64,000 bases of DNA. Origin: a virus. This document shows, piece by piece, positions 51,777 to 60,450 of this stretch. The notes under the pieces were generated by a model, which was given only the letters and a program-made list of their open reading frames with translations, searched no databases and was not told the origin of the DNA. The DNA is taken from positions 1 to 64,000 of IMG/VR virus record IMGVR_UViG_3300006752_004097; one strand, written 5' to 3'. A program made the translations under genes and the position numbers. Position 1 is the first letter of the stretch; the number at the start of each line of letters is the position of its first letter.

Positions 51777-52430
51777 ATGAAAGTTACACAGATCGTTGCT
51801 GAATCCACTAAAAAACCTGTTTCCGAGGCGCCTGTATCAGGCTTAGCACAGTTTGGTAAGAAAGTTCTTGCTAAAACAGCCGCAAAAGTAGGTGCAAAAA
51901 ATTTCGCGTCTGGCGTTGCAGGCAACGTTGACACAGGTGCTGAAGCAAACGAATTACGTAAAGCATGGCAAAATCATCAAGGTTCTATTGGCGGTAAAAT
52001 GGGTGCTAACGATCCAGCAGAGTTTAAGCAATGGTTACTTAACAATGGCTTTAAAGGCAAAGATGCAGTCATTGATAAAGCAATGACAGATAATAAAATT
52101 ACAGGACCGTTTGGTAAAGGTCCACTTGATAAAGCATTATTACAAATAGTACAGAATTCTAAAAAGGCGTCGGCACAAGGTGCTGGTGCAGATCAAACAG
52201 CCACAAAAGCACAAGCAGGGGCTACAGCAGGAGCAGGAGCAGGTAAAGGCGCTACAGCAGGAGCAAGTGCTACAGCAGGTGCAGGTAATGAAATTCCACA
52301 AGGAATTAAAGATCAATTAGATCAACTTACACCTGGAGAGAAAAAATATTTAAGTGATACACTTGGTCAAGGTAGTGCTCCACCTAAGGCTACTCCAGCA
52401 CCAACGGCACCAGCAGGAGCAACAGCATAA
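51777..52430 (+). CDS. Ala/Gly-rich putative virion protein
   Basis: The 217-residue protein has a lysine-rich N-terminus, a central part with EFKQWLLNNGFKGKDAVIDKAM and a low-complexity Ala-Gly-Thr region (about 139-170) made of repeats such as GATAGA. It ends in a Pro/Ala-rich tail. I know no function. The late box upstream and the long structural gene 1 bp downstream suggest a late virion or internal protein. The alanine-rich segment is encoded by short DNA repeats (52221-52285), which may vary in number between relatives. Confidence 0.55.
   Translation: MKVTQIVAESTKKPVSEAPVSGLAQFGKKVLAKTAAKVGAKNFASGVAGNVDTGAEANELRKAWQNHQGSIGGKMGANDPAEFKQWLLNNGFKGKDAVIDKAMTDNKITGPFGKGPLDKALLQIVQNSKKASAQGAGADQTATKAQAGATAGAGAGKGATAGASATAGAGNEIPQGIKDQLDQLTPGEKKYLSDTLGQGSAPPKATPAPTAPAGATA
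52221..52285 (+). repeat. Short in-gene repeats coding for an Ala/Gly tract
   Basis: GCTACAGCAGG occurs at 52221, 52251 and 52269 with similar spacers rich in GCAGGAGCA. The repeats lie within the Ala/Gly-rich gene and keep its frame, so copy-number change would alter only tract length. Confidence 0.6.
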
Positions 52431-52431
52431 C

Positions 52432-55203
52432 ATGAAACTTAATGAAGTAACAGCATACAATCTTAAGTCACAAGCAATATTAACAGAATCTCAGTCATGG
52501 GAAATGTTAACTGAGCAACAAAAAATCTATGTTGGTTCATGGGAAAAGAATGTTTGGCCATTAGTTGAGCAGTACAGCAACTTAATGGAAGCCGATCTTA
52601 AACCTGACGAAATACAAAAAATATTTACACAGGCTGAAAAAATATCAATTGAAGGCGGTGAGAATTTAACAGCATTAGGTAAAGCAGGTAAAGTAACTGC
52701 TGAAGTTTCAGGCAAGATGAAAACTGAAATTGACAAGTTAATGGATGCCGCGGCAAATAGCGGACCTGTTAAAAACTTTGATGCACAGTTTGAAAAACTA
52801 AAAACACAATTAAAGACCAAAGTAAAAGATATGCCCGGCGGTCAAAAAATCCTTGCAGGAGTTGACAAGTGGGGCGGATTTGCAAAAGACAATCCAGCCA
52901 AGAGTGCATTTATTATTGGTGCAATGACATCAGTACTTGCATTTGCAAGTGGTGGTATTTTAAGTGGTGCCGCAATTGGTTTCTTCTTAAAGTTAGCAAA
53001 CAACACTATTAAGGGCGATAAACTATCAACAGCAGTTGCTAAAGGTGTTAAAGGCGCGGCAATTGGTGCTATTGCAGGTGCGTTGGGCGATGCTATATCA
53101 GGAACAGCAGAAGATATGTTCCCAGCAGAGATTACACAAACATTTATGACTACCAATGGCGAGATAGATATAACAGAACTAACAGCCATGGGTGCAGACA
53201 GTATCGAAGACTTAGATTCTGAAGCAATTAAAGAACTTATTCAAACACGTACAGCAATGATACAGATGATGCCTAAATTAGACGATGAAGCATCAGCAGT
53301 ATTAGATAAACAGTTAGACGCATTAAACGATAAAATATTCGAACTTGAACCAGATGGTAAAAATGTAAAACAAGCAATTGACAATCTTCAAACTAAATTT
53401 AACATTGAAGGTGAAGGCATTGACGTTGTTGTAAAATCAAACACTACAGGTGATGCAAACGTTACTTTAGCAGATCCAGATAAGTTAGGTGATGAAGGCG
53501 ACTACGGTTCAGGACCTGAGCAAGATGTAGGTGGTACTGGCAAAGACACAGTTGACACAACAAGTACTGCTGACCCAGACGGAGATGTAGGTGCTGAAGG
53601 AACTGTAAAAGCACAGTATAGCAAAGAAGAAATGAACGAACTTGGTATGGACACAAGTGAACAACCAACAAGTACAGGAATTGCTAAACTTGGTGACGAA
53701 CTTGATTTAAGTCCAGAACAAGTTGAAAAACTTCAATCAGTTTATCAAATGGAAAAAGCAGTTTCAACCAGAGAGTTTATGGGCATAAAAATGTCCGCTG
53801 ACACTTCAATAAAAGATTTTGCAGGTAGTACACCACAAGTAGTTGACGGACTTGAAGGCGAGTATGAAGCAGGATCAGTATTTAAAAAGACTATTGAAAC
53901 TAAAATTCCAGGTTCAGACAAACCATGGAGTGCATTAGTTACAGGTTCAGTTGAAGGTGTAGATGCAGAAGGAAATATTGTTTACTCAATGTCTAAAGTA
54001 TTTGTAGGTCCGGAAGTAATGGACAGTGAATTCTGGGCAATCATTGATTCACTACCAGAAGACCAAAAAGACAGAATGATGGACATGTTTGATACATGGA
54101 AAGAAACAGCAGAATTAGAAACAGGCATTGATACATTCAAACAAGACATGGCTGAAAAAATTATGCAAGGTGCGGCGGCAGTTGCACTTGGTGGAGCATT
54201 AGCCAAATCAGAATATGTAGAAAAAGGTGCAAAGAAAGAATCAAAAGTTTATAAAAATGCAGAACAGTTAGAAGAACAATACTTTAACGAGTTAGAAGAT
54301 TACATTCTTAATGAAATAGACATTAAACAAATGGCTAAGAAAGCCGCGGCAGGTGCGGCTAACATAGGTAAAGCGGCGGCTAAAGGTACAGGTAAAGCAG
54401 TAGGCGCTGGCTTAGACAAAGCAGGTGCAGTAGCAAACAAAGGTATTGGCAAGGCTGTAGGCGCAGTTTCAGGCGCGGCTAAAAAAGCAGGTAAAGAATT
54501 AGGACAGAAAGTTACAACACGTAAACTTAACAAGGCTTGGACAAAAGCAGGTGAACCTACAGACATTGGTTCTATTACTAATATACTTTCAGCACAAGGA
54601 TTAAGCGATGAGCAGATCGGTACAGTTGCTAAAGATACAGGGCAACCTCTTAAGAAAGATCCAAACGCCGGTGGACAAGATCCAGAAGGCGAAACTGGTA
54701 GCACGGCGAGTTCGGGAGGTGTTAAAGGTGGTAAAGGAACTAAATCAAGTCCAGACCCTAAAGCAGACAAAGACGGTGACGGAATAGCAGACGGAAGTAG
54801 TGCATCAACATTACAAGGCAAGGCTTCCAAAGATCCATTTAACGATGGGCCGTTCGATATGAAGTCAAGTCCACCTAAGGGTACAAACGCAGGTGCAACT
54901 AAAGATGACTTTGAATGGAAAGGCGCACAGTGGATTAGCACATCTACAGGAAAAGTTGCAGACAAGGCAACAGCGGCAAAACTTGGTAATCCTAAAATAA
55001 ACGAATTAATACGTGAGATTCAAAAAGCAAAAGTTGAAAAACTTGTTGTAGATTATCTTGCAGGATCGGATAAGAAAGCACCAGCGGCTAAACCAGCGGC
55101 TAAACCAGCAGTTACAAAAACAATGACTTCTAAAGCGGCTAAGAAAGCACCAGCACCAGCACCAGGCGATGCAGGTGGCAAGTACGCTTCAATTCAAAAC
55201 TAA
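52432..55203 (+). CDS. Large putative virion structural protein
   Basis: From the ATG at 52432, 1 bp after the previous stop, the protein has 923 residues; the frame is open further upstream but only inside the preceding gene. Residues about 150-225 contain two hydrophobic Gly/Ala-rich stretches (SAFIIGAMTSVLAFASGGILSGAAIGFF and GAAIGAIAGALGDAI), like glycine-zipper segments that can enter membranes. The middle is acidic. Another Ala/Gly/Lys region lies near 640-710 (KKAAAGAANIGKAAAKGTGKAVGAG). DPKADKDGDGIADG near 774 resembles a calcium-binding type 3 repeat. It may be an internal or injected protein, but that is inference. Confidence 0.55.
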   Translation: MKLNEVTAYNLKSQAILTESQSWEMLTEQQKIYVGSWEKNVWPLVEQYSNLMEADLKPDEIQKIFTQAEKISIEGGENLTALGKAGKVTAEVSGKMKTEIDKLMDAAANSGPVKNFDAQFEKLKTQLKTKVKDMPGGQKILAGVDKWGGFAKDNPAKSAFIIGAMTSVLAFASGGILSGAAIGFFLKLANNTIKGDKLSTAVAKGVKGAAIGAIAGALGDAISGTAEDMFPAEITQTFMTTNGEIDITELTAMGADSIEDLDSEAIKELIQTRTAMIQMMPKLDDEASAVLDKQLDALNDKIFELEPDGKNVKQAIDNLQTKFNIEGEGIDVVVKSNTTGDANVTLADPDKLGDEGDYGSGPEQDVGGTGKDTVDTTSTADPDGDVGAEGTVKAQYSKEEMNELGMDTSEQPTSTGIAKLGDELDLSPEQVEKLQSVYQMEKAVSTREFMGIKMSADTSIKDFAGSTPQVVDGLEGEYEAGSVFKKTIETKIPGSDKPWSALVTGSVEGVDAEGNIVYSMSKVFVGPEVMDSEFWAIIDSLPEDQKDRMMDMFDTWKETAELETGIDTFKQDMAEKIMQGAAAVALGGALAKSEYVEKGAKKESKVYKNAEQLEEQYFNELEDYILNEIDIKQMAKKAAAGAANIGKAAAKGTGKAVGAGLDKAGAVANKGIGKAVGAVSGAAKKAGKELGQKVTTRKLNKAWTKAGEPTDIGSITNILSAQGLSDEQIGTVAKDTGQPLKKDPNAGGQDPEGETGSTASSGGVKGGKGTKSSPDPKADKDGDGIADGSSASTLQGKASKDPFNDGPFDMKSSPPKGTNAGATKDDFEWKGAQWISTSTGKVADKATAAKLGNPKINELIREIQKAKVEKLVVDYLAGSDKKAPAAKPAAKPAVTKTMTSKAAKKAPAPAPGDAGGKYASIQN

Positions 55204-55206
55204 TAA

Positions 55207-55446
55207 TTAAAAGAACGGCAATCCGGACTTCTTAGTAGTTTCCATATTATCTTCTACGATTTTTTTGACCATGTCTCGGTCTTCAGGACCCATATCATAT
55301 GCTTCAGATAGAGTTACTCCACCACGCATATACCAAACAAGTTTAAGAATATTGTGTCTTAGTTCTTTGGCTGAGTTTTCAAGATCAGTAACTTCTTTCT
55401 GGATTTTGTCAAGAGGCCACTGTGCTATTTGCGTACGAAAAAATTT
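55207..55446 (-). CDS. -1 frame extension of gp26 by probable programmed frameshift
   Basis: Beyond the slippery run AAATTTTTTC (55446-55437) the -1 frame is open for 76 codons to the TAA at 55207. It encodes WPLDKIQKEVTDLENSAKELRH followed by LKLVWYMRGGVTLSEAYDMGPEDRDMVKKIVEDNMETT, a helical, charged sequence ending GLPFF. A stop lies six codons upstream of the CGT in this frame, and no ATG, GTG or TTG occurs before codon 37, in the middle of the likely folded part. Separate initiation is therefore unlikely. The product would be gp26 with a 76-residue tail. It ends 3 bp from the stop of the convergent plus-strand gene. Confidence 0.65.
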   Translation of the reverse strand, partial: KFFRTQIAQWPLDKIQKEVTDLENSAKELRHNILKLVWYMRGGVTLSEAYDMGPEDRDMVKKIVEDNMETTKKSGLPFF

Positions 55447-56357
55447 GATTGGTCAAACGACACTGGTACCTCCCAAGTTTCAGGTGCACCTGCCGCCTTC
55501 TCTTCATCTGTTGCTTGTGCAACTAATGGTTTAAGTGAATGATCATTTCTTTTGTGTTCTATTGACTTTTTAACTCCATCAAAAATTTCTCCTGATGTTT
55601 GTTCAAAGAACTCAAGTATATGTTTCTTATCTGTTACTTTATCTTCAGCACCAAATTGAACCCAATCCATTTGTGTTACTACAGCGTCTAAAGTCATTGA
55701 AGTTAGTTTACCAAAACTTTGATTAAACTTCTTCATTTTTTCTTCTTCACTTAAATCTGTATCAGCAATGGTTTGCATCATACGTTGTTCTTCAAATGCC
55801 TTTAATGCAGTTTTTGTAAACTGTCTATAATTTAAAGGTCTAATATTAAATGTAAATCCGTTGCTTACATATAATGGGTCGTATGTTCTACCTTGTACAG
55901 TATCTAATAACATAATTAAATCTACTTCTACGTCCTTAGTCATTTCTGTGTTTGGAACCTGTGAAGTAATTGTAAGTTTTTCTCCATAAGTAGCAATCCT
56001 TACAGCAATCAAAATAGCATCAAGGTCTAAACTTGGTGTATCGTATGCATTTTTAATATTAGGAATACAACTTTGAATCATTGTTACTGTTGACTCACCG
56101 TTAATAAGTGCGTCTGGTGTTTTTAATACTAACTCATCTTTGGCAGTCATTGGATAGACTGGAACTTCACCATTTTCTGGTAAGTCAAGTGATCCTTCTG
56201 GCCAATATGATCCGCCTGACGGAAGTTTAAGATACAGTTTTGGCTGTCGAAAATGCTTCGTTAGGGGATTTGCCCGAACCGGTTGTACTGGTGTACCCGG
56301 TTGTGGTCCATTAGGCATCATTGGTATACCGCCTTGTGGAATTTTATTTTCTGACAT
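55425..56357 (-). CDS. 26: Baseplate hub/assembly protein gp26
   Basis: The 310-residue zero-frame product fits the T4 baseplate protein family of gp26. After a Pro/Gly-rich start come YLKLPSGGSYWPEGSLDLPENGEVPVYPMTAKDELVLKTPDALINGES (about 42-89) and IRPLNYRQFTKTALKAFEEQ. T4 gp26 (208 residues) is needed for hub assembly; some authors regard it as a tail assembly chaperone. The last codons lie on the slippery sequence T TTT TTC, so a fraction may be extended by 76 residues (55207-55446). The gene is divergent from tape-measure gene 29. An ATAAATAC late box lies 32 bp upstream, with GCAGGAG as ribosome site. Confidence 0.85.
   Translation of the reverse strand: MSENKIPQGGIPMMPNGPQPGTPVQPVRANPLTKHFRQPKLYLKLPSGGSYWPEGSLDLPENGEVPVYPMTAKDELVLKTPDALINGESTVTMIQSCIPNIKNAYDTPSLDLDAILIAVRIATYGEKLTITSQVPNTEMTKDVEVDLIMLLDTVQGRTYDPLYVSNGFTFNIRPLNYRQFTKTALKAFEEQRMMQTIADTDLSEEEKMKKFNQSFGKLTSMTLDAVVTQMDWVQFGAEDKVTDKKHILEFFEQTSGEIFDGVKKSIEHKRNDHSLKPLVAQATDEEKAAGAPETWEVPVSFDQSNFFVRK
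55437..55443 (-). promoter_or_regulatory. Slippery heptamer T TTT TTC at the end of gene 26
   Basis: Read in the gp26 frame the sequence is T TTT TTC, preceded by A AAT, so both codon positions can re-pair after a -1 slip to TTT TTT. Five codons later the zero frame stops at TAG. No strong pseudoknot is obvious downstream, and GGGAGGT upstream is about 23 bases away, farther than usual for a stimulatory ribosome site. Confidence 0.6.
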
Positions 56358-56368
56358 ATTTTTCTCCT

Positions 56369-56423: not shown

Positions 56424-58685
56424 ATGGCTGTAACAGCAGATATACCCGGAATTGGAAATATACAGATCCAAGACGCGGCTACCGAAGCGACACTAAAAGA
56501 CATCCTTGCGGCTCTAAAGAAGGGTAACAAAGGTGGAGGCGGTGGAGCGGCTGGAGGCGGTGGCGGAGGTGCTGGCGGAATGGCAGGCGTAATGGAAAAA
56601 GCCGCCAAGAAAACTGGAAACTTTGCAGACGAAATAGAATCTACTACTTCTGTACTTGGAGATTTTGGTAGAGGCTTGTCAATGGTTGGTGGAATGTTCA
56701 CCAAAGGTATTGGAATGGCCGCAGGTGCTGTAACTGGATTAGCAAGTGAGTTCATGGGTACCAGCGTTAAGATGAGCGACTTTGCTTCACAACTTCCTGT
56801 AGTTGGAAATGCATTAGGCGGAATATTACAAGTTGTTGAAGGCAGTGTACAGGAATTTAGAACTTTATCAGAAGTAGGTGCAAGTTTTGGTAACAACATT
56901 GTTGAAATGAACTTGGCGGCATCAAATGCTGGAATGAGTTTAGAAAGTTTCTCAGGATTTGTAGTTAATCAATCACAAAACATGATGCTATTAGGAGGAA
57001 CTACTTCTAATGGTGCAAAAGAGTTTGGAAAATTAATTAAGAGTTTACCAAGAAAAGAATTTATGGGAATGGGGTATGAAATGGATGCCCTTGCTGAACA
57101 CACTGCTGAGTACATGGAACAACAAGCCATGCAAGGCAGACTTGCTGGAAGATCACAAGCACAATTAAAAGCAGGTTCAGAAGCATACCTAATGCAGATT
57201 GACAGACTTGCTAAAGTAACAGGTAAGTCACGTAAAGAAGCAGAAGCACTATTAAAGAAACAAAGTGCTGAAGCAAACGTAATGGTTATGGCAAGTAAAC
57301 TGTCAGGACAAGCATTAACCAACTTCCAAGACGGACTTGCATTTGTTGATTCAGAATTACCAGGATTTAGTAACGCTATTAAAGATATGGCAGACGGTGT
57401 TGCACAAACTCCATTAGCACAAAAACTTGCGGCAACTATACCAGGCTTTGCAGACTTACAGAAACAACTTGGCGACGGTTCAATTAGTCAAGAAGAATAT
57501 GTTAAGAAAATGGCAGGCTTTGGACCACAAATGGACGAATTCTTTAAGAACATGGATCCAGCACAAGTATCAGCGTTGATGGGTAAAGAAGGTTTTGAAG
57601 GTATGACATCGGGTCTTGCAGAATTTAATAAAATGTCTGCAAAATATCGAGACGCAGACTTTAAAGCAATGGAGGCAGAACAACAACAACGTGATAAAAC
57701 TACACAAACAGTTTCCGAGTTTGAAGTAGCAATAACAGAAATGCGTAACAAAATTAAAACAACTGTACTTGACAGTGGATTGTTTGATTTGTTTATGGAA
57801 GGTATTGGCAAGTTTACTTCTTGGTTTACTGCTGAGGGTGAAGACGGTATTTCTGCTATGGACAAATACTTAGACGAACTTCTCTTATACGGTGAAGAGT
57901 TAGCGGCATTCTTAAAAGATACCTGGGAAGCATCAGACGGTGACTTAGGTACATTCTTTAGCACAGTTTGGGAAGATAGATTCAAACCTATGATTGATAA
58001 AGGATTTGATAAAGTTGGAGAAATGTTTGGCGATTGGTTTGGAGACTTCTTCAAAGAACATATTGGAACAGTAATTACTGGTGTACTTGGTGGACTTGCA
58101 GGATTAATACTTGCAGGGTTTGTAACATCATTACTACCAGCAGTGTTTGGAATTATACTTGGACCAATTATTGCACCATTCCTTGCAATCGGTGCGGCAT
58201 TAGTTGCTATATTTGGTTGGGAAACAATTAAAGGTTGGGTAGCACCAATATGGGACGTTCTATCAGGAATGTTTGGTTGGATTGGAGACTTCTTTGGAGG
58301 TCTCTGGGAAAAGACAAAGAATCTTGGTAAGAAACTTAATCCATTAAATTGGTTTGGTGGCGACGATGACGATGATGTAACTGATAAGCACGTAAAGAAA
58401 AACCAAATTTCATCAACAATTGAAATGCCAGGAACACCAGCAACTGTAACAGCAGGGACGATGCCAGACTATGAAATGCCAGCAGTTACTACACCAGAAG
58501 TTGATACTGCCAAAATTGTTGCCGATTCAGGAGTCACAAAAATGCTGGCAGACACCACAGACACGGTAAATAGTAACAGTAGCGATTTGTTATTAACAAC
58601 ATTAGGTGAACAAAACAAAATTTTGAAGCAGTTACTACGTGCAACAAATAGTTTGCAAGGTAATATGTTGAAAGGACCTGCATAA
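56424..58685 (+). CDS. 29: Tail tape measure / baseplate hub protein gp29-like
   Basis: The 753-residue protein has a tape-measure layout: an N-terminal part with a glycine-rich linker (about 32-57), a long helical body (MVGGMFTKGIGMAAGAVTGLASEF; LQVVEGSVQEFRTLSEVGASFGNN), a hydrophobic stretch at about 543-597 (TVITGVLGGLAGLILAGF then IILGPIIAPFLAIGAALVAIFGW) and a helical C-terminal end (LGEQNKILKQLLRATNSLQ). T4 gp29 (590) sets tail-tube length, so a somewhat longer tail would be expected here. It stands next to gp26, its likely assembly partner. The portal gene follows after 1 bp. Confidence 0.8.
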   Translation: MAVTADIPGIGNIQIQDAATEATLKDILAALKKGNKGGGGGAAGGGGGGAGGMAGVMEKAAKKTGNFADEIESTTSVLGDFGRGLSMVGGMFTKGIGMAAGAVTGLASEFMGTSVKMSDFASQLPVVGNALGGILQVVEGSVQEFRTLSEVGASFGNNIVEMNLAASNAGMSLESFSGFVVNQSQNMMLLGGTTSNGAKEFGKLIKSLPRKEFMGMGYEMDALAEHTAEYMEQQAMQGRLAGRSQAQLKAGSEAYLMQIDRLAKVTGKSRKEAEALLKKQSAEANVMVMASKLSGQALTNFQDGLAFVDSELPGFSNAIKDMADGVAQTPLAQKLAATIPGFADLQKQLGDGSISQEEYVKKMAGFGPQMDEFFKNMDPAQVSALMGKEGFEGMTSGLAEFNKMSAKYRDADFKAMEAEQQQRDKTTQTVSEFEVAITEMRNKIKTTVLDSGLFDLFMEGIGKFTSWFTAEGEDGISAMDKYLDELLLYGEELAAFLKDTWEASDGDLGTFFSTVWEDRFKPMIDKGFDKVGEMFGDWFGDFFKEHIGTVITGVLGGLAGLILAGFVTSLLPAVFGIILGPIIAPFLAIGAALVAIFGWETIKGWVAPIWDVLSGMFGWIGDFFGGLWEKTKNLGKKLNPLNWFGGDDDDDVTDKHVKKNQISSTIEMPGTPATVTAGTMPDYEMPAVTTPEVDTAKIVADSGVTKMLADTTDTVNSNSSDLLLTTLGEQNKILKQLLRATNSLQGNMLKGPA

Positions 58686-58686
58686 T

Positions 58687-60450
58687 ATGAGCTGGAAAAG
58701 ATACTTTACAAATGTGCCAACAGGCAATAACGACAACGGTAACATGAGCCCGTTCAGTGGACGTGGCGGTAATGAGCCTGGTCCAGCAAGATCCAATTAT
58801 TCATCATACCTACCAGATGTATATGTTGGTAGTCCAAACCGTGTTGAACGTTATGGACAATACAACACTATGGACAACGACAGTGAAGTAAATGCGGCTT
58901 TAGATATTTTAGCAGAATTTTGCTCACAACAAAATCCAAGAAATTTAACACCATTTGAACTTAACTTTAATAAACAAGCAACAAACAGTGAAATTACTGT
59001 ATTAGGACAATACTTAAAACAGTGGTCTAAATTACAGAAGTTTGACACTAAGATGTTTAGAGTTGTTCGTAATACATTCAAATATGGCGATGCATTTTTT
59101 GTTAGAGATCCAGAAACTAAAAGATGGTTTTATATTGATCCTGCAAAAGTAGTACGTATTATTGTAAACGAATCAGAAGGTAAAAAACCTGAGCAATATA
59201 TTATTAAAGATATTAACTTTAATTTTAGAGATCAAATTATTACTGATCCACATATTACAAGCGGAAATATTACAGGCGGTGGAACATCGTCAGGTTCACA
59301 AGGTTATCAATCAGGTGGCGCACAAGGTGCAGTTGGTAATACAGGAACATCACAATCAGGATCAAGATTTAATGTAAACAACAGAGAAGTTGCAATTGAT
59401 GCAGAACATGTTGTACATTTAAGTTTATCAGAAGGGTTAGACAACAACTATCCATTTGGTAATTCATTACTTGAAAGTATCTTTAAAGTTTACAAACAAA
59501 AAGAATTACTTGAAGACGCAATTATTATTTACAGAACACAAAGAGCACCAGAACGTAGAGTGTTTTACATTGACGTAGGTAACATGCCATCACACCTTGC
59601 TATGCAGTTTGTAGAACGTGTTAAAACAGAAATACACCAAAGACGTATTCCAAGTGCAACAGGCGGTTCAACAAGTGTTATTGACAGTGCGTACAATCCT
59701 TTATCAACTAATGAAGATTACTTCTTTCCGCAAACAGCAGAAGGACGTGGATCTAAAGTTGAAACATTACCGGGTGGTACTAACTTAGGTGAGATTGATG
59801 ACTTAAAATACTTTACTAATAAACTTATTAGAGGTTTACGTATTCCAAGTAGTTACTTGCCAACAGCGGCACAAGACGATGCACAAACGCAAAGTAACGA
59901 TGGTAGAGTAGGTACTGCATACATACAAGAACTACGCTTTAACAAGTACTGTGAGCGTTTACAAGCACTTGTAACAGAAGAATTTAACCAAGAGTTTAAA
60001 CGTTACTTGATGGAAAAAGGAATGAACATTGATGTTTCAATGTTTGATTTAAAACTTGAGCCACCAATGAACTTTGCAAGTTACAGACAATCAGAACTTG
60101 ATAACGTAAGAATTCCAACGTTTACACAAATTATGGCAGTGCCATTTATGAGTAACAGATATGCATTGAAACGTTTCTTAGGATTAAGTTCAGAAGAGAT
60201 TGCAGAAAATGAACGTTTATGGAAAGAAGAAAATGACGAAAACTTAACTCCACCTCCAACAGACGCCGCAGGTGAAATGCGTGGCGTAGGTATTAGCGGA
60301 GCGGCAATGGACGCAGATATAGCAGGCGGGGAAGACATTGATCCAACTGCTGAGCCTGATCCAATTGCAGGAGGAGAAGCGACAGCACCTGACACAACAA
60401 CAGGCGGTGGCGCAGGCGGAGCACCTGCTCCTGAAGTTCCACCAGCATAA
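58687..60450 (+). CDS. 20: Portal protein gp20
   Basis: The 587-residue product is a clear T4-type portal: YSSYLPDVYVGSPNRVERYGQYNTMDNDSEVNAALDILAEF, FKYGDAFFVRDPETKRWFYIDP, EHVVHLSLSEGLDNNYPFGNSLLESIFKVYKQKELLEDAIIIYRTQRAPERRVFYIDVGNMP and LGEIDDLKYFTNKLIRGLRIPSSYLP. It forms the dodecameric ring at the head vertex through which DNA passes. Two less usual parts are a Gly/Ser-rich insertion at about 195-240 (GGGTSSGSQGYQSGGAQGAV) and an Ala/Gly/Pro-rich acidic C-terminus (from about 510). The latter may be flexible or trimmed. Confidence 0.95.
   Translation: MSWKRYFTNVPTGNNDNGNMSPFSGRGGNEPGPARSNYSSYLPDVYVGSPNRVERYGQYNTMDNDSEVNAALDILAEFCSQQNPRNLTPFELNFNKQATNSEITVLGQYLKQWSKLQKFDTKMFRVVRNTFKYGDAFFVRDPETKRWFYIDPAKVVRIIVNESEGKKPEQYIIKDINFNFRDQIITDPHITSGNITGGGTSSGSQGYQSGGAQGAVGNTGTSQSGSRFNVNNREVAIDAEHVVHLSLSEGLDNNYPFGNSLLESIFKVYKQKELLEDAIIIYRTQRAPERRVFYIDVGNMPSHLAMQFVERVKTEIHQRRIPSATGGSTSVIDSAYNPLSTNEDYFFPQTAEGRGSKVETLPGGTNLGEIDDLKYFTNKLIRGLRIPSSYLPTAAQDDAQTQSNDGRVGTAYIQELRFNKYCERLQALVTEEFNQEFKRYLMEKGMNIDVSMFDLKLEPPMNFASYRQSELDNVRIPTFTQIMAVPFMSNRYALKRFLGLSSEEIAENERLWKEENDENLTPPPTDAAGEMRGVGISGAAMDADIAGGEDIDPTAEPDPIAGGEATAPDTTTGGGAGGAPAPEVPPA

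Follow-up and report, generated by a model that had tools for sequence, protein, structure and literature searches.

A gene 26-like gene of a marine phage very probably yields short and long forms of a likely tail assembly chaperone by -1 frameshifting

The gene 26-like ORF and its surroundings

The window, a stretch of 64,000 nucleotides that is part of a 69,606-base IMG/VR virus record, carries on its minus strand a gene 26-like ORF (55425..56357) whose normal 0-frame product has 310 amino acids (the short form, or TAC-N). An AGGAG motif at 56364..56368 of the same strand (anti-SD energy -7.4) is the sole good ribosome-binding site for gene 26, the starts of the -1 frame all being without one. 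The 3' end of the ORF reads TCA AAT TTT TTC GTA CGC AAA TAG in the 0 frame, with its stop codon, TAG, at 55427-55425. The short form matched the Pfam family PF12322 (T4_baseplate, T4 base plate protein; E 2.3e-9, 37.7 bits against a curated cut-off of 24.5) and the PHROGs family phrog_150 ('baseplate hub', E 2e-13), and profile comparisons linked it to T4-like gp26 (E 7e-12) and to the gp26 of jumbo phages (E 4.6e-73). Its AlphaFold2 model (pLDDT 86) has a predicted fold that matched 'Baseplate hub assembly protein, bacteriophage T4-like' with an E of 1.3e-20; the PDB held no fold match to the gp26 model with an E below 1, and PDB sequence searches with the gp26 and extension profiles returned nothing meaningful. 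The fold search also recovered proteins of about 500-550 aa from Erwinia phage Special G, Ralstonia phage RSF1, and Klebsiella phage Eowyn that share part of the gp26 fold, and on these models there may be a wider chaperone family that includes them.

The -1 frame of this ORF is open from 55452, with a TGA just before it at 55455, to a TAA at 55209-55207. The extension that it would add, TAC-C (55207..55437, minus strand), comprises 76 codons (55437-55210) and the TAA stop, and its translation is RTQIAQWPLDKIQKEVTDLENSAKELRHNILKLVWYMRGGVTLSEAYDMGPEDRDMVKKIVEDNMETTKKSGLPFF. AlphaFold2 predicted a confident, all-helical domain (pLDDT 90), in agreement with the helical character that the initial annotation had read from the peptide; that annotation's account of 76 open codons ending 3 bp before the convergent ORF was likewise exact to the base. 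The extension had no match in Pfam and weak matches only in PHROGs, and a fold search with it gave nothing significant (best E 0.003), the hit to the 'Tape measure chaperone' of phage Moogle (E 2.3) being suggestive only. The convergent ORF, taken from the ORF list, lies on the plus strand at 52354..55203 (first possible start GTG 52354), and no significant family match was found for it in Pfam or PHROGs.

On its other side, gene 26 is adjoined by a divergent ORF on the plus strand (56424..58685) encoding a tape-measure-like virion protein of 753 aa. A tape-measure-like neighbor stands beside gene 26 in 59 loci, and a profile of these 59 syntenic proteins matched GAP32_244, 121Q_597, RaK2_088, and PA5oct_335 with E values from 1e-83 to 1e-132; RaK2_00088 is annotated as similar to tape measure. 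The profile also weakly matched the putative tape measures phiM7_108 and nt-1_380. The initial annotation had named this neighbor gene 29 and had likened its placement exactly to that in lambda: a conserved tape-measure-like protein does adjoin gene 26, but the profile gave no significant match to T4 gp29, and the neighbor is divergent and on the opposite strand. In most loci the neighbor ranges from about 650 to 1,411 aa (1,411 aa in locus L017, 654 aa in L175), a variation that fits the expectation for a tape measure, and this roughly two-fold spread would predict different tail lengths. The 259-aa neighbor in L089 is probably not the tape-measure-like protein. Beyond this gene in the window lies that of a T4-like portal protein, gp20 (58687..60450, plus strand; PF07230, E 2.8e-106).

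Conservation of the extension, the slip site, and the downstream RNA

Relatives were gathered by scanning IMG/VR with the 310-aa protein (282 relatives, of which 80 were kept) and again with a distant relative as query, which added 80 loci, many of them on contigs from the first scan. A protein search of annotated phages returned jumbo phages, and a DNA search of annotated phages with the gene 26 region gave no match. The extension alignment used for folding was built from the viral contigs only, with annotated-phage loci left aside. The layout seen in the window recurs in the isolates 121Q, RaK2, GAP32, CBB, Serratia BF, XaC1, PA5oct, SCTP-2, RAS14, Atu_ph07, and Phosso, in which the extension is unannotated or a hypothetical ORF, often cut back to an internal start. 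It is also present in the Kyanoviridae tested, nt-1, Aeh1, phiM7, and a Desulfovibrio phage. The extension is wholly unannotated in Synechococcus phage ACG-2014d (L181, 3208-3393) and in Aeh1 (L189, 3211-3384).

Across 78 relatives, not one of the 5,891 codons in the -1 frame is a stop, whereas the other two forward frames have 497 and 501 stops in 5,813 codons; the median pairwise dN/dS of the -1 frame is 0.13, as compared with 1.45 and 1.95 in those frames (335 pairs, which are not independent of one another). Identity in the extension correlates with identity in gene 26 (r = 0.92), and conservation sets in at once after the slip, with an Arg as the opening residue; WYMRGG, EDR, and NLET.KK.G.PFF are among the consensus motifs. 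These comparisons establish the extension as protein-coding and under purifying selection, and conservation of the -1 peptide, which had been proposed as a check on the frameshift, was thus borne out.

Because the -1 frame opens just after the TGA at 55455 and gene 26 stops soon after, any slip is confined to an overlap of nine codons, and inside this overlap lies the slippery heptamer T TTT TTC (55437..55443, minus strand), which is of the X XXY YYZ form. The heptamer sits within the longer run A AAT TTT TTC (55446-55437), which the initial annotation had put forward in full as the in-frame site; the run is present, but only T TTT TTC is conserved, and the codon before it may be AAT, CAT, AGT, GAT, or CGT, so that the functional heptamer is T TTT TTC rather than A AAT TTT. 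An in-phase T TTT TTY inside the frame overlap, together with a homologous -1 extension, was found in 78 of 79 distinct relatives from IMG/VR and the isolated jumbo phages. These 78 gene ends comprise 77 with T TTT TTC and one with T TTT TTT, the codon phase being the same throughout; the exception is the very distant Microcystis phage Mel-JY01. The pair Phe-Phe is written TTT-TTC in 77 of 78 cases at the slip site and in 48 of 306 (15.7%) elsewhere in the same loci; restricting the count to the 17 lineages with less than 50% identity still gives a probability of 0.157^17, or about 2e-14. The site is retained down to relatives with only ~25% identity in gp26, and loss of the run in close relatives, which would have spoken against a frameshift, was not seen among the relatives compared.

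Several loci depart from this layout. In Mel-JY01 (L090, 3734-3970), the gp26-like gene ends AAC TTT TTT TGG CCT AAG TAA, and a peptide resembling the extension is encoded in the +1 (or -2) frame, where the annotation has an overlapping CDS of its own; a +1 or -2 shift is possible there. Cygsa01 (L185), Vibrio phage K362 (L186), and Salmonella phage Marshall (L190) have -1 frame extensions of 53-58 codons after gp26 homologs that end ATT TTC or CTT TTC and lack T TTT TTC. Some of these extension ORFs could start at TAATG, and the mechanism may be a different one.

The usual stimulators of a programmed -1 frameshift are a stem-loop or pseudoknot 5-9 nt downstream or an SD-like site upstream. 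Just past the heptamer, the folding energy drops relative to that of dinucleotide-shuffled sequences, with a mean z of -1.49 at +13 against a background of -0.26 (sd 0.15). Among 48 lineages under 80% identity, 22 have a perfect stem of 8-16 bp beginning 3-7 nt past the heptamer, as compared with 1.3% of background positions. When the codons of each extension were permuted synonymously, such a stem arose in 1.3 +/- 1.1 lineages, and at most in 5 (200 trials), a count so far below the real one that the stem is no by-product of the protein sequence. The 5' arm is fixed, while the 3' partner varies between lineages, with register sums of about 41, 59, 72, or 79; in the register-59 group, 97.3% of cells are paired and 6 cells are changed on both sides, against 1.3 in shuffles. 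Strong stems with a moving 3' partner were observed in L162, L164, L011, L044, L081, L173, L176, and others.

Such a stem is missing from the lineage of the window itself and from a large group related to it. The best stem in the window is an unconserved one of 7 bp that starts 14 nt away; a search for a long-range partner over up to 240 nt found none, Rfam gave no match, and no upstream Shine-Dalgarno-like stimulator was detected, the upstream sequence scoring weaker than the control. The heptamer and the nearby stop are all that is seen of frameshift signals in the window itself, and the efficiency of frameshifting in its lineage may be low. We lean toward a turnover of the stimulator under a conserved slip site, in which the 5' arm stays fixed 3-7 nt downstream, the 3' partner takes one of at least four positions, and the stem is lost in some lineages, including that of the window. 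If true, this would offer for study a natural series of cases in which a stimulatory RNA arises, changes its pairing, and disappears while the slippery site is conserved. We found no published description of the moving-partner stem of the relatives, in a literature in which Vladimirov et al. (2022) is represented by the papers that cite it.

Gene 26 and gene 51 in T4 and the cyanophages

In T4, gp26 and gp51 both match PF12322 (E 9e-64 and 4e-52) and phrog_150, and BLASTP aligns them with each other (E 2e-6), by which they are paralogs; the same family matches make the short form of the window a homolog of both. The extra C-terminus of T4 gp51, about 45 residues, matches the extensions of T4-like phages (E 1.7e-4), and phrog_634, 'baseplate hub assembly catalyst', covers both this C-terminus and those extensions. 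As regards the window, a direct match between its extension family and T4 gp51 alone was not significant, and the relationship that the initial annotation had suggested searching for would run by way of the T4-like extensions, which match the window's family with an E of 5.6e-5 (66%) and T4 gp51 in turn as above. We regard this link, with probabilities of 66% and 49% along its course, as moderate.

The annotated gp51 of HTVC008M, 46 codons long including the stop, occupies the -1 frame of gp26, which ends AGT TTT TTT TAA, and the gp51 of P-SSM2 is the -1 frame that follows AGT TTT TTC GTA TAA; this arrangement recurs in three other cyanophages and in nt-1, Aeh1, phiM7, and a Desulfovibrio phage. 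As annotated, the 'baseplate hub assembly catalyst' gp51 of HTVC008M (L094, 16366-16503) and the gp51 of P-SSM2 (L180, 3223-3396) are gp26 -1 extensions truncated at an internal start. From these alignments, the short form in T4 would be gp26 and the long form gp51, while other phages would make both from one gene. This explains why the cyanophage 'gp51' is tiny and that of T4 a full-length paralog of gp26, since both would supply the long chaperone form.

Mechanism, alternatives, and known systems

We consider it very probable, from the comparative evidence, that the gene 26-like ORF and the -1 frame downstream of it are one gene with two products made by -1 frameshifting. Most ribosomes would stop at the TAG at 55427-55425 and release the 310-aa short chaperone, lambda gpG-like in role, while a minority would slip one base back on U UUU UUC, with the two Phe tRNAs re-pairing in tandem from UUU-UUC to UUU-UUU and the following CGU being read as Arg. 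The 76 codons read after the slip would complete a fusion of about 383 aa (TAC-NC) with a role like that of lambda gpGT, and the helical TAC-C of this fusion would be the counterpart of the cyanophage 'gp51' and of the T4 gp51 C-terminus. The pair would most likely coat the tape measure protein, with the extension on the minority form recruiting tube or baseplate-hub proteins. That the shift occurs in translation rather than transcription, the ratio of the two products, and their chaperone function are points that we infer from these features. A chaperone role for the gp26 short/long pair is likely, if somewhat less so than the frameshift itself, and the initial annotation's view of gp26 as a T4-like tail assembly chaperone gains support from the homology to T4 gp26 and gp51 and from the conserved slip site and extension.

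The most serious alternative accepts the frameshift and takes the proteins to be structural components of the baseplate hub rather than chaperones of the tape measure. Studies of T4 differ on whether gp26 is a hub protein or a chaperone of hub assembly (Leiman et al. 2010, PMC3004832), and the CBB homolog is annotated as 'structural protein'. Short and long products made by a -1 frameshift beside a tape-measure-like gene are, however, the signature of a tail assembly chaperone; T4 gp51 is needed yet absent from the particle, and Leiman et al. 2010 (PMC3004832) list it, like gp26, among the hub assembly chaperones; and the TAC genes of T4-like phages were identified by Vladimirov et al. 2022, as cited in PMC10885494 and PMC12846349. 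A purely structural role is therefore unlikely.

Alternatively, the extension might be a small gene in its own right, translated from its own start by ribosomes that, after termination, reinitiate at the gene 26 stop or beyond it, as annotators imply when they call it a separate ORF and as the ATGA or TAATG overlaps in some relatives (Phosso, Atu_ph07, 121Q, L011) would allow. Against this, 37 of 78 relatives lack any ATG, GTG, or TTG in the first 15 extension codons and 13 lack one in the first 30, and the residue at the candidate start position varies among M, I, L, V, T, and Q from one relative to another. In the window, the first such codon is codon 37, as the initial annotation had it, which falls within the conserved helical domain and has no ribosome-binding site; anti-SD energies before the ATG and TTG codons of the extension run from -3.1 to +1.5, against -7.4 at the gene 26 site. 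With a start of its own, moreover, the extension could do without an invariant T TTT TTC in phase and need not be conserved from the slip junction onward. T4 itself has no stand-alone extension gene, its gp51 being a full gp26-like domain with the extension, so the separate gene among relatives that would have told against a frameshift was not encountered. We accordingly reject a stand-alone start codon, there being no conserved start and no ribosome-binding site, and hold an independent gene to be very improbable.

Equally improbable, in our estimation, is that the frames are joined by transcriptional slippage on the run of six T rather than by the ribosome. The run is a homopolymer, the DNA around it is rich in AT, and T runs are places where bacterial RNA polymerases can slip, but a polymerase would favor longer runs and ignore codon phase, whereas in 47 of 48 lineages the run has exactly six T and then a C, and its phase is always T|TTT|TTC. 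Selection at synonymous sites for stems that begin 3-7 nt past the heptamer also suits the spacer of a ribosomal frameshift. Finally, a break next to a homopolymer is a classic site of sequencing error, but an error or a decayed gene with an unused frame break is refuted by the recurrence of the same break in 78 distinct relatives, drawn from numerous assemblies and from isolate genomes.

A short and a long product of the kind proposed here have a counterpart in lambda, whose tail assembly chaperone genes G and GT reportedly rely on frameshifting (Levin et al. 1993; Xu, Hendrix & Duda 2004). In lambda-type pairs, both forms stay out of the virion and are made at a ratio of about 30:1. The window resembles lambda in having a short protein, a predicted minority -1 fusion with a small C-terminal domain, and an adjacent tape-measure-like gene; it differs in its heptamer, in its divergent neighbor, and in showing no detectable similarity in sequence or solved structure. 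By analogy, the pair would work like lambda gpG or HK97 gp14, with which we do not class it as homologous. T4 was listed as an exception to the conserved G-T frameshift in a review that describes the lambda G/GT mechanism (Atkins et al. 2016, PMC5009743). T4 gp26 is like the window's short form, and T4 gp51 combines a gp26-like domain with a C-terminus of the -1 extension type, but in T4 each form has its own gene, one on either strand, and no frameshift is involved.

The idea of a TAC frameshift in T4-like phages has already been published (Vladimirov, Gautam & Davidson 2022, as relayed in PMC10885494 and PMC12846349). According to these citing papers, the TAC genes of T4-like phages have T-rich -1 slip signals (PMC12846349), and some such phages do without the frameshift and have two copies, a short one and a longer fusion (PMC10885494). 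As far as the account in PMC12846349 goes, these systems share with the window short and long forms, a poly-T slip site ending the short gene in several of them, and, on our reading of gp26 and gp51, membership in the PF12322/phrog_150 family. The window differs in belonging to a marine lineage near jumbo phages of the RaK2, 121Q, and GAP32 type, in its 310-aa short form and 76-aa extension, and, relative to lambda and the cyanophages, in having the tape-measure-like gene on the opposite strand. The TAC genes of Pakpunavirus/Vandenendeviridae and Andersonviridae (PMC12846349) likewise end in a T-rich -1 site with an extension that is misannotated or blank; their slip motif is GTTTTT as opposed to T TTT TTC, and the likeness rests on the layout.

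What the window adds is a new lineage of an already known short/long chaperone pair. With it, the annotation gap at 55207-55424 is filled by the extension, and the two-form chaperone made by -1 frameshifting would span from the T4-like cyanophages to the marine relatives of jumbo phages, in which the extension is currently left blank or called 'hypothetical protein'.
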